This document shows positions 1 through 10,694 of a DNA stretch of 10,694 nt, in pieces. Under the pieces are notes generated by a model. That model did not search any database. It saw only the letters and a list, made by a program, of their open reading frames with translations, and was not told the origin of the DNA. Every line of letters starts with the position of its first letter. The stretch's first letter is position 1. The position numbers and the translations under genes are program-made. The DNA comes from a bacterium (lineage in GTDB: Bacteria; Arandabacterota; Arandabacteria; Arandabacterales; JALGWA01): NCBI GenBank assembly GCA_025774425.1, contig JALGWA010000022.1:1-10694 (forward strand). Reading direction: 5' to 3'.

Positions 1-967
1 TGACGGTCCGGATTCCGGCTGCGCGGCCCTTGCCCTTCATTATTTCCGAGACGCGCGTCCTGCCGGACACCTCGATTCTGCGGTCGAGAAGCTCCTGCCT
101 CTCGGCGGCCGTGAGCGGCATCTCGGCGAGATTTTCGAGGGCTATGAGCTCTACGCGCTCGGCCCCCCTCTCGGCCGCGACCACGGCGCAGTCCAGGGCG
201 GTGGCGCCTCCGCCGACGACGGCGACCCGGCCGGGCATCGGGTACCCGCCGGGGCTCTCCAGGTAGGCGAGGCCCGGGACCGCCAGGTCCTCGTTCTCCA
301 GCCCCAGTGCGGCGGGAACGCCGAGACCGGCGCAGACGGCGACGGCGTCGAAGCCGCGCTCGAGCAGTTCCGCGGGACTTTCGACACGCGACCCCGTCCT
401 CAGGGAGATGTTCCCCGCCGAGAGCAGGTACTCGATGTCGCTCCGCAGCACGTCACGCGGCAGCCGGCCCTCGGGAATGAGCAGGCACATGCCGCCGGCC
501 TCGTCCCGCTCCTCGAAAACTGTCACGTCATAGCCGAGACGCGCCAGCGTGACGGCGGCGGCGAGCCCGGCCGGGCCGCCGCCGACGACCGCCGCACCCA
601 TGCCGTTCTTCTCGACCTCTCCGAGCGCGGGCATGACGCCCAGCTCCTTCGCCTTCCGGACGATCGTCGCCTGGACGGCCGGGATATCGACTGGCGTGTT
701 CAACCCGCCGTAAACGCATGCCGACATGCAATGCCTGTCGGGACACACCACGCCGCAGACGCCGCCGAGCGGATTGGCCGTGAGTATCTCCGCTGCGGCC
801 CTCCTGTAGTCCGACGGAAGGCCGACCCTCGAGGCGAGGATGAAATCCATCGGCGAGCATCCGGCGGGACAAGCGCCGAGACAGGGTCTCTCCTCGCAGT
901 TCTCGCACTTCTCGACTTCGAACCTGAGCTGCGCCTCCGTGAGGAAGAATCTCTTACGCTCACTCAT
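1..967 (-). CDS. GltD/PreT/YgfK-like Fe-S flavoprotein oxidoreductase, partial (C-terminus beyond window)
   Basis: The first 322 residues are visible; the frame is open to base 1, so the 3' end is missing. The N-terminus has the two-cluster cysteine pattern of the glutamate synthase small subunit/dihydropyrimidine dehydrogenase domain: C21, C24, C29, C33 followed by P34, then C71, C75, C80, C84. An FAD-binding GGGPAG follows at residues 129-134, and an NAD(P)H-binding GGGATALD at 252-259. Family members move electrons between NAD(P)H, FAD and Fe-S clusters in the cytoplasm, usually for a partner enzyme. The ATG at 967-965 is supported by GAGGT 8 nt upstream. It is the fourth gene of the carbamoyltransferase operon, 24 nt after carbamate kinase. 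That context resembles ygfK near ygeW and yqeA in E. coli, but the N-terminal extension of full-length YgfK is absent, so PreT or stand-alone GltD-like is the safer name. The electron acceptor cannot be told from this part. Confidence 0.88.
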   Translation of the reverse strand, partial: MSERKRFFLTEAQLRFEVEKCENCEERPCLGACPAGCSPMDFILASRVGLPSDYRRAAAEILTANPLGGVCGVVCPDRHCMSACVYGGLNTPVDIPAVQATIVRKAKELGVMPALGEVEKNGMGAAVVGGGPAGLAAAVTLARLGYDVTVFEERDEAGGMCLLIPEGRLPRDVLRSDIEYLLSAGNISLRTGSRVESPAELLERGFDAVAVCAGLGVPAALGLENEDLAVPGLAYLESPGGYPMPGRVAVVGGGATALDCAVVAAERGAERVELIALENLAEMPLTAAERQELLDRRIEVSGRTRVSEIMKGKGRAAGIRTV

Positions 968-991
968 GACTTGAAACCTCGCCTTCGCGAC

Positions 992-1954
992 CTACGGCGT
1001 GAACCTGGTTCCCGCCTCGCCCCTGAGCGCCTTCGCGATGCTCGGTGGATCCGTGATTACGGCCTCGCCGCCGCCGGCCTCCAGGAACTCGAGGACGGCG
1101 CGGATCTTCGGCGCCATGCTGCCTTCGGCGAAATGACCGCCCTCGTCCAGCCGACGCCTCGCCTCGGCGAGGGTCATGTGGTCGACGGGCTCCTGATCGG
1201 GCTTCCCGAAATTGAGCGAGACCCTGTCCACGGCCGTCGTGATGAGAAAGAGGTCCGCCCCGATCCTCCGCGCGAGGAGTGAAGACGTGTAGTCCTTGTC
1301 GATCACCGCCGCCACGCCCTTGAGGACGCCGCCCTCGTCCGCGACCACCGCGATGCCGCCGCCGCCGCCCGCGACGACTATGATGCCGGCGTCGAGCAAT
1401 TCTCTCACGGCGGGCTCCTCGACGATGCGCACGGGCCTGGGGGAAGGCACGACGCGCCTCCAGCCGCGGCCGGCGTCCTCGATGACCTCCCACCCGTCTT
1501 CCTTTCTCCGCCTCTCGGCGTCGGCGGCGGACATGAAGGTTCCGATCGGCTTCGACGGCCTGGCGAACGCCGGGTCCTCGGCCTTCACCTCGACCTGGGT
1601 GACGACGGTCACCACGTTCTTGTCCATCCCGCGCCTCAGGAACTCGTTGTAGAGGTTCTGCTGTATGGCGTACCCGATGGCGCCCTGCGTGTCGGCGTTG
1701 CAGGCGTCGAGGGGTACTTCGTGCAGCTCGTGCCGGGAGAGCTCCGAACGGCGGAGTATGAATCCCACCTGGGGACCGTTGCCGTGCGTGATCGCGACCG
1801 TCCAACCGGCCTCGATCATGTCGGCGATGTGGACACATGTCTCGTGGGCGGCCGCGTACTGGTCCTCCACCGTCATGTGCCGCTTGTCGATGATAAGCGA
1901 GTTGCCGCCGATGGCGACGACCGCGAGTTTGCGTCCGCTCTTCTCGTTCTTCAT
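992..1954 (-). CDS. arcC: Carbamate kinase
   Basis: The product has 320 residues, close to the usual 310 or so of the family. Carbamate kinase transfers phosphate between carbamoyl phosphate and ADP; in catabolism it makes ATP, CO2 and ammonia. Family signatures in order are AIGGNSL (14-20), THGNGPQVG (56-64), DACNADTQGAIGY (83-95), KPIG (135-138), GGGGGIAV (196-203), VIDKDYTSSLLA (217-228), VDRVSLNFGKPDQ (242-254) and GHFAEGSMAPK (273-283). The start is the ATG at 1954, which overlaps the preceding gene's stop as ATGA, so translation is probably coupled. GGAGGG lies almost against the ATG, too close for a normal ribosome site, which also favours re-initiation. An in-frame upstream extension to 2029 lies inside the previous gene and lacks family similarity. 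Lying after two carbamoyltransferases, the enzyme most likely consumes carbamoyl phosphate. It is the counterpart of yqeA in the E. coli ygeW cluster. Confidence 0.95.
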   Translation of the reverse strand: MKNEKSGRKLAVVAIGGNSLIIDKRHMTVEDQYAAAHETCVHIADMIEAGWTVAITHGNGPQVGFILRRSELSRHELHEVPLDACNADTQGAIGYAIQQNLYNEFLRRGMDKNVVTVVTQVEVKAEDPAFARPSKPIGTFMSAADAERRRKEDGWEVIEDAGRGWRRVVPSPRPVRIVEEPAVRELLDAGIIVVAGGGGGIAVVADEGGVLKGVAAVIDKDYTSSLLARRIGADLFLITTAVDRVSLNFGKPDQEPVDHMTLAEARRRLDEGGHFAEGSMAPKIRAVLEFLEAGGGEAVITDPPSIAKALRGEAGTRFTP

Positions 1955-2991
1955 CCCTCCGCCCCCATCGTGAGCGCCATGACCGCCTTCTGGACGTGCA
2001 GGCGGTTCTCGGCGACATCGTATATGCATGAACGCTCGCCGCTCGCTACCTCGTCGGTGACCTCGTGCCCCCTATCGATGGGCATCGGGTGCGTGAAGAT
2101 CGCGTTGTCCGTGAGCGCCATCTTACCCGAGTCGCAGATCCAGTCCGTGAGCTTGAGGGCCCTCTCTATCTCGGCCTGCTTGAGAAACTCGCCGTCCTTG
2201 TATGCGTCCGGGCTCATCCAGTGGCGCGAGTATACGACATGCGCTCCCTCGTAGCCGGCGCGGACGTCGTTGGTGATCTCGAAGGCGGCGCCGTTGGCCT
2301 CGCAGTTCTCCCGTGTCCAGCGGATCACGTCGGGGTCGAGATCGTATCCCTCGGGATGGGCGAGCGTCACATCCATGCCGAAGCGCGAGCCGATCAGTAT
2401 GGCCTCCTGCACGCTGCTCCACGAACGCGCCAGCGCGCCGTGCCCCCACGTCATCAGGAGCTTCTTCCCCTTGAGTCCGCCGGGATCGAATCCGCCCTCC
2501 GGGCCGAGCCACTCGATCCAGCCCATGACGTCGGCGAGGCCCTGGCAGGGATGGTACTTGTCATGCGCCATGGAAACCACCGGTATGGCGGCCCATTTCG
2601 CGTATTCGCGCACAAGGGCGTCTCCCTCGCCGTAAGCGCCCACCTTGTCCTCGAGAATCCGGATGCCGAGCCCGCAGGCGTAGCGGCTCATCACCCTCGC
2701 CGCGTCCTCGATCGTCTCCCCGGCCGTCTTGGCCGTCTTGAGCCGCATGCTCTTGGGCTCCAGGAACTGGGCGTGCCCGCCGAGCTCGGTCGCCGCGCAT
2801 TCGAAGCTCTGGCGCGTCCTCACCGACGGGTTGTAGAAGAACATGAAGAACGTGCGGTCCTTGAGCACACGAGTGAATCCGTAGCGATCCTTCTTCATCC
2901 TGACCGCGAGGTCGAGGACGGCTTGGAGCTCGTCCAGGGTCCATTCCTGGGTCACGATGAGGTCGCGGCCCTTGAGATCGACGGCGCTCAC
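1951..2991 (-). CDS. Second carbamoyltransferase paralogue, divergent, lacking the proline knot loop
   Basis: The product has 346 residues. It has the aspartate/ornithine carbamoyltransferase fold signatures: carbamoyl-phosphate-binding SVRTR (56-60) and HPCQ (147-150), with the C-terminal domain entered at MTW (180-182). It resembles the upstream gene along its whole length (FYNxSxRTRxSFE, LGGHAxFL, DKYHPCQ, EGAHVVY, VQKAVMxL), so the two are paralogues. Two key spots differ. The segment after MTW, 14 residues long in both, reads GHGALARSWSSVQE here and has no proline, whereas the neighbour has three prolines in the knot-forming position. The substrate-side motif is HPMP (301-304), not HCLP, nearer to the HPLP of aspartate carbamoyltransferases. 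The GTG start at 2991 follows the neighbour's stop by 1 nt and has a strong Shine-Dalgarno. Substrate is unknown; arginine-synthesis ArgF is unlikely given the SxRTR variant and the operon. It may act on a different carbamoyl acceptor or form a mixed assembly with its paralogue. Confidence 0.88.
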   Translation of the reverse strand: MSAVDLKGRDLIVTQEWTLDELQAVLDLAVRMKKDRYGFTRVLKDRTFFMFFYNPSVRTRQSFECAATELGGHAQFLEPKSMRLKTAKTAGETIEDAARVMSRYACGLGIRILEDKVGAYGEGDALVREYAKWAAIPVVSMAHDKYHPCQGLADVMGWIEWLGPEGGFDPGGLKGKKLLMTWGHGALARSWSSVQEAILIGSRFGMDVTLAHPEGYDLDPDVIRWTRENCEANGAAFEITNDVRAGYEGAHVVYSRHWMSPDAYKDGEFLKQAEIERALKLTDWICDSGKMALTDNAIFTHPMPIDRGHEVTDEVASGERSCIYDVAENRLHVQKAVMALTMGAEG

Positions 2992-2992
2992 C

Positions 2993-4063
2993 TTATCTAC
3001 CTCCCATTATCAGCGACATCACGGCCTTCTGCGCATGCATGCGGTTCTCGGCCTCGTCGAAAATCGCAGACCTCCAGCCGCCCGCGACGTCCGTCCGGTC
3101 CATGACGTCGTTGTCGACCTCCCAGCCGCGGTCGGCCGGCAGGCAGTGCATGTATATGGCGTCCCTGGCCGCGGTATCCATGATCTCGGAAGTCATCTTC
3201 CAGCTCTTGTACTTGTCGAAAATCTGCTGGGTCTTGTCGGGATCGTTCTCACCGACGGGCGGCTGGAATATGGGAGTCGCCGCCCAGGCCTTGGGATATA
3301 CGACGTGGGCGCCCTCGAAGGCCTTCTCGAAGTCGTGGGTGACGGTGAACGTCGTCCCGTTCATCCCGGCGTTCGCCTTGCAGGCGGCGATCACCTCCGG
3401 GTCGAGCTCCATCTCCGGCGGATGGGCGAGCACGGTTTCGCATCCCATGAGCGACGCCGCGATGACGGCGCTCTGGGGCACCGCGCGCGGCTTGTGGACG
3501 CTCGGGCTGTAGGCCCAGCTCATGACGAACTTGATCCCCTTGAACGTCCCGAAGTACTCCTTGACCGTCATTATATCCGCAAGCGCCTGGCATGGGTGGT
3601 ACTTGTCGCACTCCATGTTGATCACCGGTATGTCGGACCAGCGCGCGAATTCCTCCATGAGGGCGTGCGCGCCTCCGTACACCCAGTCCACGGGGTCGCC
3701 GTAGCAGCGTATGGCGATGGCGTCGCCCATGCGGGAGAGCACCCTCGCGACGTCGGAGACGCGCTCGGTCGAGTAGGCGACCTCCTTGCCCTCCAGTGCG
3801 GGCGTGTAGATCTTGTTGGGATCGAGGAAATGGGCGTGCCCGCCGAGCTGGGTCATGCCGGCCTCGAAGGAGTTGCGCGTGCGCAGGCTCTGATTGTAGA
3901 AGAGCATGAAGAGCGTCTGCGCGCGCAGGATGTGATCATGCGGCTCGCGGAGCGCGAACCTCCGCTTGAGATCGAATGCCACCTCGAGCATGGACTCGAC
4001 CTGCTCCTTGCTCCAGTCGAGCAGGGTCATGTAGTCTCTTCCCTTGAAACCGTCGGTCTTCAT
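2993..4063 (-). CDS. Knotted carbamoyltransferase, YgeW/AOTC/SOTC-like
   Basis: The product has 356 residues. Carbamoyl-phosphate-binding motifs are SLRTR (59-63) and HPCQ (156-159), and the acceptor-side motif is HCLPADRG (306-313). The segment WAYSPSVHKPRAVPQS (183-198) matches the proline-rich loop that makes the trefoil knot in N-acetylornithine, N-succinylornithine and YgeW carbamoyltransferases. SLRTR instead of STRTR is shared with the acylornithine enzymes, while HCLPAD and WAYSPS resemble YgeW. Family enzymes transfer a carbamoyl group between carbamoyl phosphate and an amine; in catabolic operons the reverse reaction yields carbamoyl phosphate. The ATG at 4063 was chosen because AGAGGA lies about 9 nt upstream and the reading frame beyond it lacks family similarity. 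It is the first gene of the operon, about 108 nt after the predicted transcription start. The natural substrate cannot be read from sequence; acetylornithine, succinylornithine or a purine-derived ureido compound are all possible. Confidence 0.9.
   Translation of the reverse strand: MKTDGFKGRDYMTLLDWSKEQVESMLEVAFDLKRRFALREPHDHILRAQTLFMLFYNQSLRTRNSFEAGMTQLGGHAHFLDPNKIYTPALEGKEVAYSTERVSDVARVLSRMGDAIAIRCYGDPVDWVYGGAHALMEEFARWSDIPVINMECDKYHPCQALADIMTVKEYFGTFKGIKFVMSWAYSPSVHKPRAVPQSAVIAASLMGCETVLAHPPEMELDPEVIAACKANAGMNGTTFTVTHDFEKAFEGAHVVYPKAWAATPIFQPPVGENDPDKTQQIFDKYKSWKMTSEIMDTAARDAIYMHCLPADRGWEVDNDVMDRTDVAGGWRSAIFDEAENRMHAQKAVMSLIMGGR
2999..3005 (-). promoter_or_regulatory. Shine-Dalgarno GGGAGGT that fixes the GTG start at 2991
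   Basis: GGGAGGT lies inside the last codons of the upstream carbamoyltransferase gene and ends 7 nt before the GTG at 2991-2989. The spacing is ideal, which supports GTG as the true start of the second transferase and tight operon coupling. Confidence 0.8.
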
Positions 4064-4177
4064 GGCAACCGTCCTCTTGGCTTGTCGGAGCCCTAAACAT
4101 GTCGAGCCGCGGGCGCCTCGCACCGCAGCCTGGATAACGCATCCCCGGCGCAACCGGCCGGGTCGGTTGGACACGTC

Positions 4178-4205
4178 ATTATACCGAATGGGCGCGCATT
4201 GTCAA
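4178..4205 (-). promoter_or_regulatory. Consensus sigma-70-type promoter of the carbamoyltransferase operon
   Basis: On the minus strand, TTGACA (4205-4200) and TATAAT (4183-4178) both match the housekeeping consensus at six of six positions, with a 16-nt spacer. Transcription would start near 4171, giving a leader of about 108 nt before the ATG at 4063. No clear attenuator or known riboswitch fold was recognised in the leader, only short GC-rich inverted matches. Two perfect hexamers in such GC-rich DNA are unlikely by chance and sit exactly where the operon needs a promoter. Confidence 0.82.
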
Positions 4206-4333: not shown

Positions 4334-4951
4334 ATGCGCAAGGCGGTGTTCGTGCTCACCCTCGCGCTCGGCGCGGCCGCATGCGACCCGTTCGCGGCCG
4401 ACCCCGGGGATTCCGCCGGGTGCTCGAGCGAGGGCTGCGCCGTGAGCGGCTACATCGAGACCGAGGCCGGCCGGCCTCACAGGGAGGTCAAGGTCACGCT
4501 GAGGTCGGGCAGCCACCGCCTCTTCGGGGAAACGGACAAGGACGGCCGCTACGAGATCATCGGCGCCGTCCTGTGGAGGGACTACTGCGTGACGCCCAAG
4601 AAGGGCCCGTGGGAGTTCGACCCGCCCGAGCACTGCATCAAGGCCATCGACCGGGATCACTCGGGCCTGGACTTCGTCGCGGCCCATGTCGACAGCTTCG
4701 ACATCAGCGGCCAGGTCTTCGATATGCACGGCCCCTTGAGGGACGTCGCCGTGTTCCTGACGGGTCACGCGACGAAGAACACCCGAACCAATTCGCAGGG
4801 CTTCTACGCCTTCCGGAGCCTCAGGGGGCGCGAAGACTACCGGGTGTTTCCCTCCAAGCCGAGCTATACTTTCGAGCCCACCGAGCGGCGTTACACCTAC
4901 CTCGACAGCACGTTCGACGACGAGGATTACCTGGCGACCGAGAGCGAATAG
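4334..4951 (+). CDS. Putative lipoprotein with two carboxypeptidase-regulatory-like (beta-sandwich) repeats
   Basis: The product has 205 residues. It begins with a short basic/hydrophobic signal and LGAAAC ending at C17, a likely lipobox although position -3 is A rather than L, V or I. Two related repeats follow, about residues 36-116 and 122-203. Each has the pattern (V/I)SGx(I/V), a V/A-rich beta strand, then GETDKDGRYEI or TNSQGFYAF, then a YxVxPxK-type strand and a segment like YTFEPTERRYTY. This is the layout of CarboxypepD_reg/Cna-B-like domains found in exported proteins. Four further cysteines (30, 35, 85, 101) could form two disulfides. ATG 4334 is preferred; an in-frame GTG at 4328 is also possible because GGAGGAGG (4316-4323) serves either. 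The gene converges on the large repeat protein and shares a hairpin with it. No enzymatic residues were recognised; a structural or adhesive envelope role is inferred. Confidence 0.82.
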   Translation: MRKAVFVLTLALGAAACDPFAADPGDSAGCSSEGCAVSGYIETEAGRPHREVKVTLRSGSHRLFGETDKDGRYEIIGAVLWRDYCVTPKKGPWEFDPPEHCIKAIDRDHSGLDFVAAHVDSFDISGQVFDMHGPLRDVAVFLTGHATKNTRTNSQGFYAFRSLRGREDYRVFPSKPSYTFEPTERRYTYLDSTFDDEDYLATESE

Positions 4952-4977
4952 ACCGCGGCGAACGGCGGCGCGGTCTA
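4949..4977. terminator. Candidate bidirectional hairpin shared by two convergent genes
   Basis: TAGACCGCG (4949-4957) and CGCGGTCTA (4969-4977) form a perfect 9-bp inverted repeat with an 11-nt loop. The outer three bases of each arm are the stop codons of the two converging genes. Neither side is followed by a T-tract, so it is not a textbook intrinsic terminator. It may still act as a 3'-end stabiliser or a bidirectional, factor-assisted terminator. Confidence 0.6.
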
Positions 4978-7602
4978 CTCGAGAAGCAGCATCTTCCGTG
5001 TCCGGCGGCAGGCCCCGGCCCTGAAATCGACGAAGTAGAGACCGGGGGCGAGGGCGTGACCCGCCGTCGAGGCGGAGTCGAAGTCTATGTCATACATCCC
5101 CGCCGCCCGGGGGCCGTCGATGAGCGTCACCACGCGGCGGCCGAGCACGTCGTAGACCGCGAGCTTCACATCGGCCGTCTCGCCGAGCGTGAAGCGCAGC
5201 GTGGTCCGGCTCCTGAAGGGATTGGGTGAATTGGGATAGAGATACGCCGACCCCTGCGCCGCCCCCGGAGGGACGCCGGCCACGGTGTCGAAGAAATTGC
5301 CCCACACGCGATAAGACCCGTAGCCGGGATCGGAGATGAAGGAAGAGTAGATCATCAGGGCGACCCCGATCGGTGTCGTGCAGACGTCGGGCGTCATCTG
5401 GTGATTGGCGGCGCCGGAGACTTCGAAGCCGGAGGGGTCGGAGACCGCCCCGGAAGTGTCGGCACGGGCGCCGTATATGTCGAGCCCGGCCGACCCGCGG
5501 CCGTCCTGCCAGATCATCAAGTACTCCCTGCCGTTGAAGGCTATGGCGGGCTCCTGCTGGTCACCCGCCGCGCCGCTTACGATGATTCCGGACGGGTCAA
5601 GCACCGTGCCGTCGGCGGTGACCCTCGAGAGGTATATGTCATAGTCGACGTTGGTGCGGTAGTCCTGCCAGACGACGGCGTACCGGTCGCCGTCGAACAC
5701 GACGTCCGGATGTTCCTGGGCAAGCGGCGCACTCGCTATGGCGATGCCGGACGAGTCGAGCACCGCCCCGTTCCTCCGTACCCGTGTTCCGAAGATGTCG
5801 TCGTAAACGTTGCGGGCGTCCTCCCATACGACGAAGAAGTCCAGGCCGTCGGACGCCGCCGAAGGGCGGGCCTGGTCCATCAAGGCCTCCGACACGGGTA
5901 TTCCCCAGGCCTCGAGCACCGTGCCGTCGGGATCGACCCGCGACGCCCTTATGTCGAAGTCGCCCCTCCGCCTGTCCTGCCAGACGACGAGGTACCTCAC
6001 GCCGTTGAAGGTCACGGCCGGGCGCTCCTGGTCGTCCGGGCCGAGCGAAACGGAGAACCCGCCCGGGTCAAGCACCGTGCCGTCGGGCGCAATCCGGGCG
6101 GCGTATATGTCGGCCTCGCCGTTGCGGTAGTCCTGCCACGCGACGAGATAGTCGCTGCCGCCGAAGCAGACCGCAGGATACATCGCGTCACTCGAGTCCA
6201 CGCACACGGAAATACCCGCGGGATCGAGCACCGTGCCGTCCGCGGACACCCGCGTGGCGCGTATGTCGTAAAGCGTCTCCTCGCGCCACTCGTGCCACAC
6301 GACCAGATAGCCGGCGCCGTCGTATGCGACAGCGGCTTCGGCCTCGTCGACGGACGCCACGCTTATGAGGAACGACGCCGGATCGAGCACCGTGCCGTCG
6401 GAGCCGACGCGTATCGCGAAGATATCCTTATGATCGTTGCGGCTGTCGTGCCACGCGATCAGCCATTTCGAGCCGTCGAATGCCGTCGCGAGGCCGAACT
6501 GCTGGCTCGGCTCCAGACTGAGCGCGAGCGACGTCGTGTCGATCACCGCGCCGGTCGAGTCGATGCGCGCGCCGTAGACATCCCAGGTGTCGCCGTTGCG
6601 ATAGTCGTCCCAGACGACGAAGTAATCGGGGCCGTTGGTGCTCACCGCCGGATAGCCCTGGTAGGCGGGGTCGTCGCATACGACGATACCGGAGTCGAGC
6701 ACCGCCCCGGCGGTGTCCACGCGCGTAGCGTATATGTCGTATGAAGTCGCGCCCATGTCGACGCCCCACGTGACCAGGCATTCGCTGCCGTTGTATGCGA
6801 CGGCGGCATGCGCCTCGTCGGCCGAGGTCACCGCGACGGGGATGCCGCCGGAATCGAGCACCGCCCCGGCATAGGTCACCCTGGTCCCGTAGATGTCCAG
6901 CTGTCCGCTCCGCCTGTCCGCCCAGACGACTAGCCATCCCGCCCCGTTGTGGGCCGTCGTCGGGTATCGCTGGGACGCCGGATCGACGCAGAGCGCTGTT
7001 CCGCCGGAGTCGAGCACGGCGCCGTCGGGCGCGACCCGTGCCCCGTAGATGTCGTCATTGCCGCTGCGTGTGTCGGCCCAGACGACGAAATAGCAGGTGT
7101 CGCCGAAGGCGATCGCGACGTCGGCCTGTCCGCCCGCCTCGGTGCAGATGGGCAGTCCGTCGGGGTCGAGCACGGCGCCGCCGGGCGTCACCCGCGCCCC
7201 GTAGATATCGTCGGTGCCGCTGCGCCTGTCCGCCCAGACGACCAGGTACCCATCGCCGTCGAAGGCCACGGCCGGGGTGGCCTGCTGACCGGGGGCGTCC
7301 GATATGATGAAACCGCCCTCGTCGAGCACGGTGCCGTCCGGCGCCACCCTGGCGCCGAAGATGTCGTTCGACGTCTTGCTCCGGTAATCGCCCCACACGA
7401 CCAGGAAGTTGGTGCCGTCGAAAGCGACCGCCGCGTCCACCTGGTACTCGATGGGCGGGCCGAGGACCACGTCCCCGCCGATGTCGAAGGCCGGGCCGAC
7501 GCTGTCCGAGGCCGCAGGGCCGTCCGCATAGGCCGGGCAGAGGCCGGCGGCCAGCATTCCCCAGAGAGCGGCCAGCAGTGCACCGCAGATGCGCTTTTCC
7601 AT
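4975..7602 (-). CDS. Exported repeat protein, about 14 propeller-like units plus C-terminal sorting/FlgD-Ig-like domain
   Basis: The product has 875 residues. A Sec signal peptide comes first, with likely cleavage after AYA at residue 26. Residues 52-738 are 13 repeats of about 53 residues with the core AxAFDGxxYLVVWxDxRxG, DIYGARVxxDGTVLD, PxGxxVS, and a Q-x-x-P-like end. A fourteenth, degenerate unit lies at about 739-783 (MIYSSF, YRVWGNFFD). Residues 784-875 form a C-terminal beta module with LYPNSPNPF, VYDVLGRRVVTLID and APGLYFVDF, typical of the type A sorting-domain/FlgD-Ig-like tails of FCB-group secreted proteins. The repeats look like beta-propeller blades, and fourteen would fit two seven-bladed propellers; that is inference. 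AAGGAGGT at 7 nt and ATG 7602 give a firm start. No catalytic motif was seen. A secreted or surface-attached binding role is likely, and it has no evident link to the neighbouring metabolism genes. Confidence 0.9.
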   Translation of the reverse strand: MEKRICGALLAALWGMLAAGLCPAYADGPAASDSVGPAFDIGGDVVLGPPIEYQVDAAVAFDGTNFLVVWGDYRSKTSNDIFGARVAPDGTVLDEGGFIISDAPGQQATPAVAFDGDGYLVVWADRRSGTDDIYGARVTPGGAVLDPDGLPICTEAGGQADVAIAFGDTCYFVVWADTRSGNDDIYGARVAPDGAVLDSGGTALCVDPASQRYPTTAHNGAGWLVVWADRRSGQLDIYGTRVTYAGAVLDSGGIPVAVTSADEAHAAVAYNGSECLVTWGVDMGATSYDIYATRVDTAGAVLDSGIVVCDDPAYQGYPAVSTNGPDYFVVWDDYRNGDTWDVYGARIDSTGAVIDTTSLALSLEPSQQFGLATAFDGSKWLIAWHDSRNDHKDIFAIRVGSDGTVLDPASFLISVASVDEAEAAVAYDGAGYLVVWHEWREETLYDIRATRVSADGTVLDPAGISVCVDSSDAMYPAVCFGGSDYLVAWQDYRNGEADIYAARIAPDGTVLDPGGFSVSLGPDDQERPAVTFNGVRYLVVWQDRRRGDFDIRASRVDPDGTVLEAWGIPVSEALMDQARPSAASDGLDFFVVWEDARNVYDDIFGTRVRRNGAVLDSSGIAIASAPLAQEHPDVVFDGDRYAVVWQDYRTNVDYDIYLSRVTADGTVLDPSGIIVSGAAGDQQEPAIAFNGREYLMIWQDGRGSAGLDIYGARADTSGAVSDPSGFEVSGAANHQMTPDVCTTPIGVALMIYSSFISDPGYGSYRVWGNFFDTVAGVPPGAAQGSAYLYPNSPNPFRSRTTLRFTLGETADVKLAVYDVLGRRVVTLIDGPRAAGMYDIDFDSASTAGHALAPGLYFVDFRAGACRRTRKMLLLE
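5389..7449 (-). repeat. Thirteen tandem, diverged coding repeats of about 156-159 bp
   Basis: This is the DNA encoding residues 52-738 of the large exported protein. The plus-strand word GCACCGTGCCGTC recurs at 5601, 5916, 6072, 6228 and 6387, at spacings of 315 (two units), 156, 156 and 159 bp. All spacings are multiples of three, and the units have drifted while keeping frame, as expected of an old internal duplication under protein-level selection. Confidence 0.85.
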
Positions 7603-7770: not shown

Positions 7771-9237
7771 ATGCCGAGCAAGGAACAGGTACTCGAGAAC
7801 ACCGTAAGAAGATGCAGGGAGAGGAATATCATCATTCCCACCTACGAACAGATGCGGGATCCCCGCAAGATACCCGCCGGCATAGTGGAGGAACTCAAGG
7901 ACATAGGCCTTTGGGACCTTCACCCGAGGAACTTGTTCCGCATCACGTGGAAGAACGAGCCCGTCACCCGCGGCGGCGGCTTCCGGGGCGTCAACTACTT
8001 CGAAATCCCCCGGGCGCTCAGCGGTGTCGATGCGAGGATTTTCGTGCTGCTGGGCAAGTTCTTCCCCACGGGGGCCCACAAAGTGGGGGCGACCTTCGGA
8101 CCGCTCGTCGAGAAACTGGTGCGCGGCGAGTTCGACCCGACGACCCAGAAGGCCCTGTGGCCGTCGACGGGCAACTACTGCAGGGGCGGCGCATACGATT
8201 CGCGCCTCCTGGCGTGTCCGTCGATCGCCGTCCTGCCCGAGGGCATGTCACAGGAGAGGTTCGAATACCTGAAGAAACTCGGCTCGGAGATCTACGCCAC
8301 GCCGGGTACCGAGAGCAATGTCAAAGAGGTGTATGACAAGACCCACGAGCTCAAGAACGAGAGACCCGACGAGGTAGTCGTGCTCAACCAGTTCGAAGAG
8401 TTCGGCAACTCCGTGTGGCATTACGCAGTCACCGGCCCGGCGATGGAAGAGGTCTTCACGAACGAGAAGAGGGCCTCCGACAGGTTCGCGGCGGTCTTCC
8501 TGACGCAGGGCTCCGCCGGGACGCTCGGCTGCGCCGACTACATACGCGAGAAGTTCCCGCGGGTCAGGATATGCGCCGGCGAGGCCCTGCAATGCCCCAC
8601 ATTGCTCTACAACGGTTACGGGGAGCATCGCATCGAGGGGATAGGCGACAAGCACGTGCCCTGGATCCACAACATCAGGAACATGGACATGGTGGCGGGC
8701 ATCGACGACGAGCAGTGCATCAGGCTCATCCGGCTCTTCAACGAGGAAGCCGGCAGGAAGCACATGCGGGAGGCCGGGGTGCCGGAGGCCATAGTCGACA
8801 GGCTGGACCTCTTCGGGATCTCCTCGGTCGCCAACCTCGTCGGCGCCATCAAGATGGCAAGGTACTACGAGATGGACACGGATGATTGCATCTTCACCGT
8901 GGCCACGGACTCGATGGAACTCTACCAGTCGAGGCTCCGGGAACTGCGCGAGGAGCGCGGCGAATACACCGCATCCGACGCGGCGAGGGACTTCGATGCC
9001 TGCCTGATGGGACAGACCATCGACCACATGCTCGAGCTGACCTACTGGGATCGGAAGCGCGTCCACAATCTCAAGTACTTCACCTGGGTCGAGCAGCAGG
9101 GCAAGACGGTCGAGGAGCTCAATGCCCAGTGGTACGACCGGAACTACTGGGCGAGCAGGTTGAACTCCTACCGGGAATGGGACGAGAGGATCCGCGAATT
9201 CAACGAGAGAACGGGGCTCCTCAAGCAATACGAATAG
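7771..9237 (+). CDS. PLP-dependent enzyme of the TrpB/CysK superfamily (fold type II), long form
   Basis: The product has 488 residues and would be cytoplasmic. PTGAHKVGA (99-107) resembles the TGAHK segment of tryptophan synthase beta, so K104 is the predicted Schiff-base lysine. STGN (132-135) matches the substrate-carboxylate loop, and GSAGTLG (247-253) the glycine-rich PLP-phosphate loop. Other clear blocks are SIAVLPEGMS (151-160), TPGTESNVKE (177-186) and the region around EGIGDKHVPW. The protein is much longer than cysteine synthase (about 310) or YgeX diaminopropionate ammonia-lyase (about 400), with a long charged, aromatic C-terminal part. It best fits the poorly characterised family annotated as PLP-dependent protein subunit beta. 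The reaction is probably a beta-elimination or beta-replacement on an amino acid; the substrate is unknown. ATG 7771 follows GGAAGGA at 10 nt. The frame stays open far upstream, but only as antisense to the repeat protein gene. It has its own divergent promoter. Confidence 0.87.
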   Translation: MPSKEQVLENTVRRCRERNIIIPTYEQMRDPRKIPAGIVEELKDIGLWDLHPRNLFRITWKNEPVTRGGGFRGVNYFEIPRALSGVDARIFVLLGKFFPTGAHKVGATFGPLVEKLVRGEFDPTTQKALWPSTGNYCRGGAYDSRLLACPSIAVLPEGMSQERFEYLKKLGSEIYATPGTESNVKEVYDKTHELKNERPDEVVVLNQFEEFGNSVWHYAVTGPAMEEVFTNEKRASDRFAAVFLTQGSAGTLGCADYIREKFPRVRICAGEALQCPTLLYNGYGEHRIEGIGDKHVPWIHNIRNMDMVAGIDDEQCIRLIRLFNEEAGRKHMREAGVPEAIVDRLDLFGISSVANLVGAIKMARYYEMDTDDCIFTVATDSMELYQSRLRELREERGEYTASDAARDFDACLMGQTIDHMLELTYWDRKRVHNLKYFTWVEQQGKTVEELNAQWYDRNYWASRLNSYREWDERIREFNERTGLLKQYE

Positions 9238-9314: not shown

Positions 9315-9327
9315 AGTGGGAGGATGG

Positions 9328-10293
9328 ATGGATTTCATTGCCGACCTCGAGGAGCTCGCCCTCGCCACGCGCCTCAAGAGGCTGAGCGAGAGGCTGATGA
9401 AGGACGTGTCCAAGGTCTACAGCACCCTGGGAGTCGACTTCAAGGCCAACTGGTTCTCGACGCTCTACGCCCTCGGAAAGACCTCGCCCATGACCGTGAC
9501 CGGGCTGGCCAAGCTGCTCGGGCTCTCGCATCCGGCGGTCAACCAGATAGCGGCCCAGCTCCTCGCCCGGGGCTTCATCACCCAGGGCAGGGACAGGAAG
9601 GACGAGCGCAGGAGGCTCCTCCGCCTTTCCCCCAAGGGCCGCCGGCTGATGAAGCGGCTCCAGCCCGTCTGGGATGAGATAAGACTCGCCAATCGCGTCC
9701 TCCTCAGGGAAGCGGGAGTCGACCTTCTCGGGGACCTCGCCCGGGTTGAGGCCGCCCTGGACGAGAAGTCGATGCTGAACCGGGTCAGCGAGAGGCTGGG
9801 CCTGCCCACCGCTTCCCGCCTGAAGATCGTGGACTACCGGCCCGCCTACAAGAAGCATTTCCTTTCGATCAACCTCGAGTGGCTCGAGGAGTACTTCAGC
9901 GTGGAAGACAGCGACAGGAGGATTCTCAACGATCCCAACCGCAGGATCCTCAAGAAGGGCGGAGCGATACTCTTCGCGCTGCTCGACGGCGAGGTCGTGG
10001 GAACGTGCGCCCTGATCAGGCACGCCGGGGATGTGCTGGAGCTCGCCAAGATGGGCGTGAGACCGGAGGCCCGGGGCCGGGGAATCGGAAGGGCCCTCGC
10101 CGAAGCCGCCGTCGCCCGGGCCAGGAAGATGGGCGCCGCCCGGCTCTACCTGTGTACGAGCCCTGTTCTCGAGCGCGCATGCACGCTGTACCGCCGGCTC
10201 GGCTTCGAGCAGGTAGACGACATCCCGGTTCCGGGAGCCCGGGAGGAGCGCTACAGGCGTTGCAGCATCACGATGGCCCTCAGGCTGGACTAG
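9328..10293 (+). CDS. MarR-type regulator fused to a GNAT acetyltransferase
   Basis: The product has 321 residues in two parts. Residues 1 to about 155 are a MarR winged-helix domain: the helix-turn-helix lies around TVTGLAKLLGLSHPAVNQIA (56-75) and the wing around GRDRKDERRRLLRLSPKG (87-104). Residues about 167-321 are a GNAT domain with the acetyl-CoA pyrophosphate loop VRPEARGRGIG (244-254) and the late YRRLGFE block (288-294). Such fusions are a known architecture, annotated as bifunctional HTH regulator/GNAT. They probably bind DNA and acetylate a small molecule or protein, but targets are rarely known. ATG 9328 is chosen with GGAGG (9319-9323) 4 nt upstream; GTG 9316 would lose that site. 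It lies 90 nt after the PLP enzyme and 103 nt before the aminotransferase, all on one strand, so it may regulate them. Confidence 0.9.
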   Translation: MDFIADLEELALATRLKRLSERLMKDVSKVYSTLGVDFKANWFSTLYALGKTSPMTVTGLAKLLGLSHPAVNQIAAQLLARGFITQGRDRKDERRRLLRLSPKGRRLMKRLQPVWDEIRLANRVLLREAGVDLLGDLARVEAALDEKSMLNRVSERLGLPTASRLKIVDYRPAYKKHFLSINLEWLEEYFSVEDSDRRILNDPNRRILKKGGAILFALLDGEVVGTCALIRHAGDVLELAKMGVRPEARGRGIGRALAEAAVARARKMGAARLYLCTSPVLERACTLYRRLGFEQVDDIPVPGAREERYRRCSITMALRLD

Positions 10294-10396: not shown

Positions 10397-10694
10397 ATGG
10401 ACTATGAGTTCTCGAGAATCTCCGGGAGGATATTCGGATCCGAAATCAGGGAGATCCTCAAGTGGACGCGCAAGCCGGGGGTCATCTCCTTCGGCGGGGG
10501 CCTCCCCAACGCGTCGCTCTTCCCGGTCGACGAGATCGCTGAAATAACCGCCAAGGTGCTCGGCGAGAAGGGCTATCTCGCGCTCCAGTACGGGCCCACC
10601 CGCGGCGAGGGCGAAATGCTCGAAGCCATCGTCGCCCACATGCGCGAATTCGGGGACCGGGCCGCTCAAGAGCAGGTTTGCGTCACGTCTTCCT
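10397..10694 (+). CDS. PLP-dependent class I/II aminotransferase (LysN/2-aminoadipate type), partial
   Basis: The first 99 residues are visible; the gene runs off the right edge. SFGGGLPNASLFPVDEI (31-47) and ALQYGPTRGEGEMLEAI (62-78) are the N-terminal signatures of the fold-type I aminotransferase subgroup containing LysN and the MocR-type aminotransferase domain. The last visible residues VCVTSS lead into the expected cofactor-binding glycine/serine segment. Absence of a winged-helix domain before residue 1 makes it a stand-alone aminotransferase rather than a MocR regulator. Members transfer amino groups between 2-aminoadipate, branched-chain, aromatic or similar amino acids and 2-oxoglutarate. 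The catalytic lysine lies beyond the window, so substrate and integrity cannot be judged. ATG 10397 follows a strong Shine-Dalgarno at 6 nt. Confidence 0.88.
   Translation, partial: MDYEFSRISGRIFGSEIREILKWTRKPGVISFGGGLPNASLFPVDEIAEITAKVLGEKGYLALQYGPTRGEGEMLEAIVAHMREFGDRAAQEQVCVTSS

Follow-up and report, generated by a model that had tools for sequence, protein, structure and literature searches.

The 10,694-nucleotide stretch analysed here (the window) is one entire contig (G000:C212, 10,694 of 10,694 bases) of a draft genome of 2.26 Mb in 476 contigs that is 83% complete, and its minus strand carries a four-gene operon encoding, in order, two paralogous carbamoyltransferases, a carbamate kinase and a GltD-like flavoprotein. 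We refer to the transferases as TCB and TCA, and to two pyridoxal phosphate (PLP)-dependent enzymes that accompany them in relatives as PALP and PALP2; these four labels were coined in this analysis, while family names come from profile models. The assignment of the module to the known reductive urate pathway, as a two-transferase variant, is well supported, and it is quite probable that the operon itself serves urate or purine breakdown. Our best explanation as a whole, to which we give a probability of roughly 45%, is that the operon supplies the energy-conserving lower part of a variant reductive (anaerobic) urate pathway. That TCB is the equivalent of YgeW appears likely on balance, and the chance that TCA acts on the second ureido group is somewhat short of even.

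The reductive urate pathway was described in 2025 from gut bacteria (PMC12507026; this report, like PMC4016543, PMC6022934 and PMC4581275 below, is cited from excerpts). In the published scheme, the two ureido groups of 2,3-diureidopropionate are removed in different ways, one phosphorolytically by YgeW and one by hydrolysis through YgeY, and the resulting 2,3-diaminopropionate goes to YgeX; the order of the two cleavages is disputed (PMC12990295). In the variant that we propose, a xanthine dehydrogenase (Xdh)-type enzyme, a flavin reductase (in this case probably the GltD-PreA fusion, of which the contig end preserves the first half), SsnA and HyuA would convert urate to 2,3-diureidopropionate, TCB would phosphorolyse one of its ureido groups, and TCA would phosphorolyse the other, a step done hydrolytically by YgeY in E. 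coli. Carbamate kinase would turn both carbamoyl phosphates into ATP, and the 2,3-diaminopropionate released would pass to a PLP lyase other than YgeX, namely PALP2 and/or PALP. With TCA in the place of a hydrolase, more of the energy of the molecule might be saved as ATP. All of the substrates, the role of TCA, the ATP yield and the identity of the lyase are proposed here; what we observe is gene content, gene order, conservation, the carbamoyl-phosphate motifs and, in some relatives, linkage to SsnA, HyuA, Xdh and YgfK genes. In its most specific and more doubtful form, the proposal makes TCA a new transcarbamylase acting on albizziin or 3-amino-2-ureidopropionate, with two carbamoyl phosphates, and up to two ATP, gained per urate.

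The four genes are closely packed, with a 1-nt gap between TCB and TCA, a 4-nt overlap between TCA and the kinase gene and a 24-nt gap before the flavoprotein gene, and a site with a full sigma-70 consensus stands ahead of them (Table 1). The initial annotation had read these co-directional genes as an operon with exactly these spacings, and that description holds; the site upstream is a putative promoter, as a consensus match is not proof of function. The kinase passes the PRK12352 model, as befits a catabolic carbamate kinase, and narrowly misses the arcC model (354.5 against a cut-off of 358.25). In the nearest relatives (L036-L038, L040, L041 and L049), TCB (82-85% identity) is followed by TCA (78-82%), confirming the conserved pair that had been expected in related genomes, and the fact that this order is kept points to a pairing beyond chance.

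Both transferases contain PF02729 and PF00185 (E values of 1.1e-32 to 9e-40), and they are 41% identical to one another. Neither reaches the cut-off of the YgeW model TIGR03316 (146 bits for TCB and 120 for TCA against 500), of the N-acetylornithine carbamoyltransferase (AOTC) model PRK04523 (278.7 and 238.4 against 288) or of the ornithine carbamoyltransferase (OTC) model TIGR00658 (240 and 192 against 280.85), and in alignment the two window proteins lack the SMG motif that E. coli ArgI carries at the same place. SxRT and HPxQ, two of the carbamoyl-phosphate motifs, show no variation in the 83 TCB rows and 56 TCA rows of our alignment, which comprises 156 sequences; the HxLP motif is exact in TCB (HCLP) and mostly HPMP in TCA (86%). 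A proline-rich loop is a feature of the knotted transcarbamylases AOTC, SOTC and YgeW, and in AOTC and SOTC the second substrate is bound by the lysine that starts the 240s loop (PMC4581275). TCB has both the YgeW-type loop motif, WAYSPSxxKPxxVPQ, and the 240s-loop lysine (YPKxW), its loop reading SWAYSPSVHKPRAVPQ where that of YgeW reads TWAYSPSYGKPLSVPQ. Across the 83 TCB rows, W-A-Y-S, S, K-P, V-P-Q and the 240s lysine are each present at 100% and the first proline at 98%. TCA lacks the YgeW loop motif: its loop is shorter by one residue, carries none of those prolines and follows the pattern W..G-xLxRSxxS.Q with invariant Gly, Leu, Arg-Ser and Ser, and the 240s-loop lysine is replaced by arginine in 56/56 TCA rows. 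Because TCA has kept the carbamoyl-phosphate motifs and has second-substrate residues of its own, it appears, from its sequence, to be a working enzyme whose second substrate is a different one.

A quick maximum-likelihood tree of 59 chosen rows places TCA in one group (20 rows, support 100) and TCB in another (22 rows, support 89), with E. coli-type YgeW grouping with single-transferase homologues outside both clades; long branches near AOTC, OTC and PyrB make the deeper branching order unsure. Each of the two groups includes Chloroflexota, the window's lineage, members named as Elusimicrobia or as Deltaproteobacteria/Myxococcota, and Thorarchaeota, and since both are spread over the same several phyla, the split between TCA and TCB looks old. 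What had been described as a duplicated transferase is thus not a recent duplication but a pair of old, separately grouped clades. Among the matches listed, relatives of TCA are named by their sources as ornithine or N-acetylornithine carbamoyltransferase, so that existing annotations hide the TCA family.

The surroundings of TCB were surveyed in 80 loci kept from 249 relatives found by a contig scan; each spans at most 10 kb on either side and often less, many contigs being short. We observed TCA in 50 of these loci, carbamate kinase in 35, a GntR regulator in 22, PALP2 in 17, PALP in 16, the Xdh large subunit in 5, YgeY in 3, YgfK in 2 and HyuA in 1, and no module gene in 8/8 OTC control loci, four of them shorter than 8 kb. 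Wider stretches were taken round chosen genes in chosen genomes. In G007, a genome of the same class as the window and 96% complete, contig C345 carries Xdh genes, PreA-like, HyuA, SsnA and TCB, and contig C344 carries TCB, TCA, carbamate kinase and PALP2; the cluster lies all on one strand and the contig break falls inside TCB. Searches of G007 gave neither YgeY (E ≤ 1e-60) nor YgeX (1e-20), and no YgeW over the cut-off. A single contig of G075 holds TCB, TCA, carbamate kinase, YgfK, Xdh and SsnA, and one of G003 holds a fusion gene adjoining ssnA, HyuA, the run CK-TCA-TCB (CK, carbamate kinase) and PALP, beside reductive pyrimidine genes.

The window's own genome contains both SsnA (G000:C306, 503 bits against a cut-off of 455.5) and HyuA (G000:C304, 492 bits against 393.25), the combination used here as a mark of reductive urate breakdown. 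A protein on its contig C275 scores 757 against the XdhA cut-off of 780 and 623 against the XdhD (TIGR03313) cut-off of 1102; in L160 (G000:C275, 2223-6300), matches to the Xdh large and small subunits lie beside a GuaD-like amidohydrolase match. In L232 (G000:C304, 1-4508), PALP2, HyuA, a PreA-like gene and a nitrilase-type N-carbamoyl amidohydrolase stand in a row. We also searched 45 genomes, which are no random sample because they were picked for holding TCB or TCA (in G006, a TCA fragment only). SsnA (TIGR03314) is over the cut-off in 29/48 entries, which amount to 27/45 distinct genomes, and present at E ≤ 1e-100 in 38/45, compared with 1/14 control genomes over the cut-off, that one being E. 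coli; HyuA is over the cut-off in 14/22 genomes and YgeW in 2/45. Among 201 evenly sampled genomes of the phylum of G075, 33 have SsnA (1e-100), 6 have TCA (1e-80) and 5 have both (hypergeometric P 5e-4, kinship ignored). Since G075, which is included in this figure, had been chosen for holding both, we recomputed without it and found SsnA in 4/5 TCA genomes against 32/200 overall (P 2.5e-3, kinship again ignored). The earlier suggestion of a variant anaerobic purine/urate module that yields carbamoyl phosphate for ATP is well supported: relatives carry SsnA, HyuA, YgfK and Xdh genes, and SsnA and HyuA are present in the own genome as well.

The case for two phosphorolyses draws mainly on a swap of neighbours, which is correlative and would suggest, by gene position, that TCA stands in for YgeY. 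Within 2.5 kb, YgeY lies beside YgeW in 3/3 loci, beside distant single transferases in 5/9 (one of the nine, L019, groups with AOTC) and beside TCB in 5/79, two of these last five being only 27% identical to E. coli YgeY. TCA lies within the same distance of TCB in 45/79 loci and of YgeW or the distant transferases in 0/12. Where 2.5 kb of DNA is available to either side of TCB (43 loci), TCA is present in 21, YgeY in 2 and both in 1, and no YgeY is found at 1e-60 in 16/45 genomes, including the own draft (83% complete), G007 and G075. The distant transferases (40-47% identical to TCB) have YgeY nearby in 5/5 fetched loci (L226-L230) and SsnA in four of them, with the order PALP2-TC-YgeY-PALP-SsnA-HyuA-YgfK (partial match)-Xdh in L229. 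Two of the four distant transferases without YgeY adjoin another transferase, which is ATC-like in L193 (7998-8951) and OTC-like in L212 (from base 3), and the corresponding genomes, G078 and G091, have no YgeY at 1e-60. The L193 neighbour passes the aspartate carbamoyltransferase model (256 against 237 bits) and so may simply be pyrB; if these neighbours are not pyrB, a second transferase has possibly joined a YgeW-type enzyme twice, independently.

The flavoprotein at the contig end, which the initial annotation called GltD-like and set beside the E. coli grouping that includes ygfK, is not a YgfK. The 322 residues present in the window match residues 3-322 of an 830-residue protein of G003 (L149:9554-12046, minus strand) at 69% identity. 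The N-terminal half of that protein is GltD and its C-terminal half PreA, and its gene runs directly into ssnA. This full-length orthologue scores 159 bits against the cut-off of 835 of the YgfK model TIGR03315, and its domain order is the reverse of that in YgfK, where the GltD part forms the C-terminal half. The order GltD-PreA is that of mammalian DPYD. An 830-residue open frame of the same kind adjoins SsnA in G002, and GltD parts that are 54-55% identical lie near SsnA in G025 and in the Elusimicrobia genome G095. In the own genome, C306 ends on its right in a minus-strand SsnA whose start is cut off; the cut fusion and the cut SsnA together fit a continuation of C212 into C306 across an assembly gap, which the 830-residue orthologue would put at about 1.6 kb. 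The rest of the fusion was not found at similar identity on other contigs of the own genome (best other matches 30-34%). We regard the fusion in L149 as a candidate for a new type of dihydropurine reductase. In the excerpts of Li et al., the reductases reported are YgfK, UacX or F420-type, and Chloroflexota clusters are said to lack YgfK and to use the F420-type instead (PMC12507026); the fusion would add one more type to these. In L163, L166, L167 and L170 (from G076, G083, G079 and G075, respectively), loci titled Anaerolineae, Anaerolineales or Chloroflexia, YgfK adjoins SsnA and is nearly full length, with 39-41% identity to the E. coli protein.

The initial annotation also looked to YgeX as a companion, and this part falls away: YgeX (TIGR03528) is over the cut-off in 0/45 genomes, appears in 1/45 at 1e-20 and is absent from the own draft at these thresholds, and other PLP enzymes are linked to the module instead. 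In G002, G003 and G005 PALP is the closest gene to TCB and runs divergently from it, and about 1.5 kb separates the divergent pair in G001 and G004. PALP also occurs within the urate clusters L184 and L229, adjoining true YgeW and YgeY in L184 (G025), and it is found at 1e-60 in 43/50 genomes.

Several observations weigh against the pathway proposed here. We know of no activity for any of these proteins. In whole-protein score and fold, TCB shows no preference for YgeW over AOTC or OTC; what likens it to YgeW is the loop and the lysine. A purine enzyme marker was found in only 7/80 TCB loci (13/80 counting a BMP-type transporter) and SsnA in 0/80, within the at most 10 kb on each side, and on the many short contigs, that these loci cover. 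Within 2.5 kb, 2/79 TCB loci have both TCA and YgeY and 31/79 have neither, and neither neighbour is present in 21/43 of those with 2.5 kb of DNA on both sides. YgeY is over the cut-off in 24/45 genomes with the module, so TCA is no simple replacement for it everywhere; of the companionship of YgeY assumed at the outset, only part has given way. The nitrilase-type amidohydrolase beside HyuA in L232 could, judging by its family, hydrolyse the second ureido group. PALP belongs to a very large family (at least 8000 matches at 1e-80) and is therefore not specific, and in Thorarchaeota the SsnA matches are below the cut-off and no carbamate kinase was recognised near TCB.

These points bear on three other readings. 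It is possible, if unlikely, that TCB and TCA form a mixed trimer that cleaves one ureido group, with TCA as partner or regulator and YgeY or another hydrolase taking the second. The trimer is the basic unit of known transcarbamylases (PMC4581275), YgeY is available in the 24/45 genomes just mentioned, and TCB and TCA are often close and co-directional, 34/39 same-strand pairs within 2 kb having match ends -1 to 159 bp apart. The invariant SxRT and HPxQ motifs of TCA and its own second-substrate residues are, however, as for an enzyme rather than a scaffold, the two genes are on separate contigs in some genomes (for example G083 and G076), and 16/45 genomes, including G007, have no YgeY at 1e-60. 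Two substrates and a hetero-oligomer had both been suggested for the pair; the former fits better and the latter less well. A further reading, slightly less probable again, is that the pair serves other ureido acids, mainly in reductive pyrimidine breakdown (N-carbamoyl-beta-alanine) or from mixed hydantoins; its position near purine genes would then come from HyuA- and PreA-type enzymes being common to the two routes. The G003 contig also has PreT, PreA, dihydropyrimidinase and a nitrilase-type amidohydrolase, the own genome groups HyuA, PreA-like and nitrilase-type genes, and 73/80 TCB loci show no purine enzyme within reach; yet SsnA, YgfK and Xdh genes recur as companions in the wider stretches, the YgeW binding-loop motif is present in TCB, and the pyrimidine route has one ureido group and needs one such enzyme, where G003 already has an amidohydrolase.

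It is very improbable that TCB and TCA simply belong to the ornithine or N-acetylornithine carbamoyltransferases that serve arginine biosynthesis or the arginine deiminase pathway. The source names of the TCA family (among the matches listed) and the closest solved structures, which are AOTCase, would agree with this reading; neither protein, however, reaches the AOTC or OTC cut-off, an OTC-like gene with a higher score is found elsewhere in the own genome, and the 8/8 OTC control loci (four under 8 kb) are free of module genes. Arginine deiminase neighbours had been named at the outset as counter-evidence to the module, and arcA, detected in the Lactococcus lactis control, was found at 1e-20 in 0/45 genomes.

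Set beside the E. coli cluster (L116; ygeW-ygeX-ygeY-hyuA-yqeA ... ygfK-ssnA-ygfM-xdhD; PMC12507026), the module likewise places a carbamoyltransferase and carbamate kinase downstream of SsnA and HyuA, has the YgeW-type proline-rich loop in TCB and frees carbamoyl phosphate that can give ATP. It differs in having two transferases, in the PLP enzymes linked to it in the place of YgeX (0/45 over the cut-off), in the GltD-PreA fusion, instead of YgfK, beside ssnA in close relatives, and in that YgeY seldom adjoins its transferase (5/79 TCB loci). As excerpted, the ureidoglycine transcarbamylase of Rubrobacter xylanophilus, a transferase beside carbamate kinase that, in purine breakdown, replaces an amidohydrolase by phosphorolysis, would by analogy be a published precedent for the proposed replacement of the hydrolase; it differs in being ATCase-like, in its substrate, allantoate, and in being a single transferase (PMC4016543). 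L-2,3-diaminopropionate transcarbamylase, of viomycin and zwittermicin biosynthesis, carries out the reverse of the reaction proposed for TCA (PMC6022934); this enzyme, known here by description, is anabolic and OTCase-like (PMC6022934, PMC4581275). The UacX/UacY variant of C. difficile has, as G007 does, a PreA/DHODH-type reductase instead of YgfK, whereas its UacY hydrolyses, so no carbamoyl phosphate is saved there and the present module would extend phosphorolysis (PMC12507026).

A 2025 commentary lists two questions as open, namely which ureido group goes first and whether the pathway arose in ancient times or as an adaptation to the gut (PMC12990295). Two transferase clades with distinct binding-site motifs offer a direct handle on the former, and the occurrence of TCB and TCA across uncultured lineages from several phyla is relevant to the latter. 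If correct, our proposal would mean that uncultured bacteria of several phyla, including Chloroflexota and relatives of Candidatus Eisenbacteria, ferment urate by phosphorolysis throughout, using a lyase other than YgeX and a reductase whose domains stand in the reverse order.

Table 1. Features of the window, with positions on the 10,694-nucleotide contig
Feature	Position	Strand	Basis
Sigma-70 promoter-like site, TTGACA-16 nt-TATAAT, before the operon (putative)	4178..4205	-	12/12 consensus matches; shuffles mean 0.0
TCB carbamoyltransferase, 356 aa	2993..4063	-	PF02729/PF00185; YgeW-type proline-rich loop and 240s lysine; clade
TCA second carbamoyltransferase, 346 aa, GTG start	1951..2991	-	PF02729/PF00185; SxRT and HPxQ intact; clade support 100
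Carbamate kinase, 320 aa	992..1954	-	PRK12352, 389 bits against a cut-off of 266
N-terminal 322 aa of GltD-PreA fusion flavoprotein (candidate dihydropurine reductase)	2..967	-	Cut by the contig end
PALP, PLP-dependent enzyme, 488 aa (possible module accessory)	7771..9237	+	PF00291; divergent beside TCB in relatives

Loci L099, L101-L103 and L105-L115 carry TCB, sometimes with TCA, in metagenome-assembled genomes of Thorarchaeota or other archaea, with no carbamate kinase recognised nearby. The TCB of G005 in L162 (G005:C55, 2514-3609) is split into two matches that overlap, which would fit a frameshift close to the 3' end, whether through an assembly error or in a broken gene. Between TCB and PALP, the window encodes a small lipoprotein-like protein with a carboxypeptidase-regulatory domain (about 4334-4951, plus strand) and a beta-propeller protein with a T9SS-type sorting tail (4975-7602, minus strand); since TCB and PALP adjoin in G002, G003 and G005, these two genes look like an insertion or rearrangement. 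Beyond PALP lies a MarR-type regulator fused to a GNAT acetyltransferase (9316-10293, plus strand), after which a PLP aminotransferase-like gene starts at 10397.

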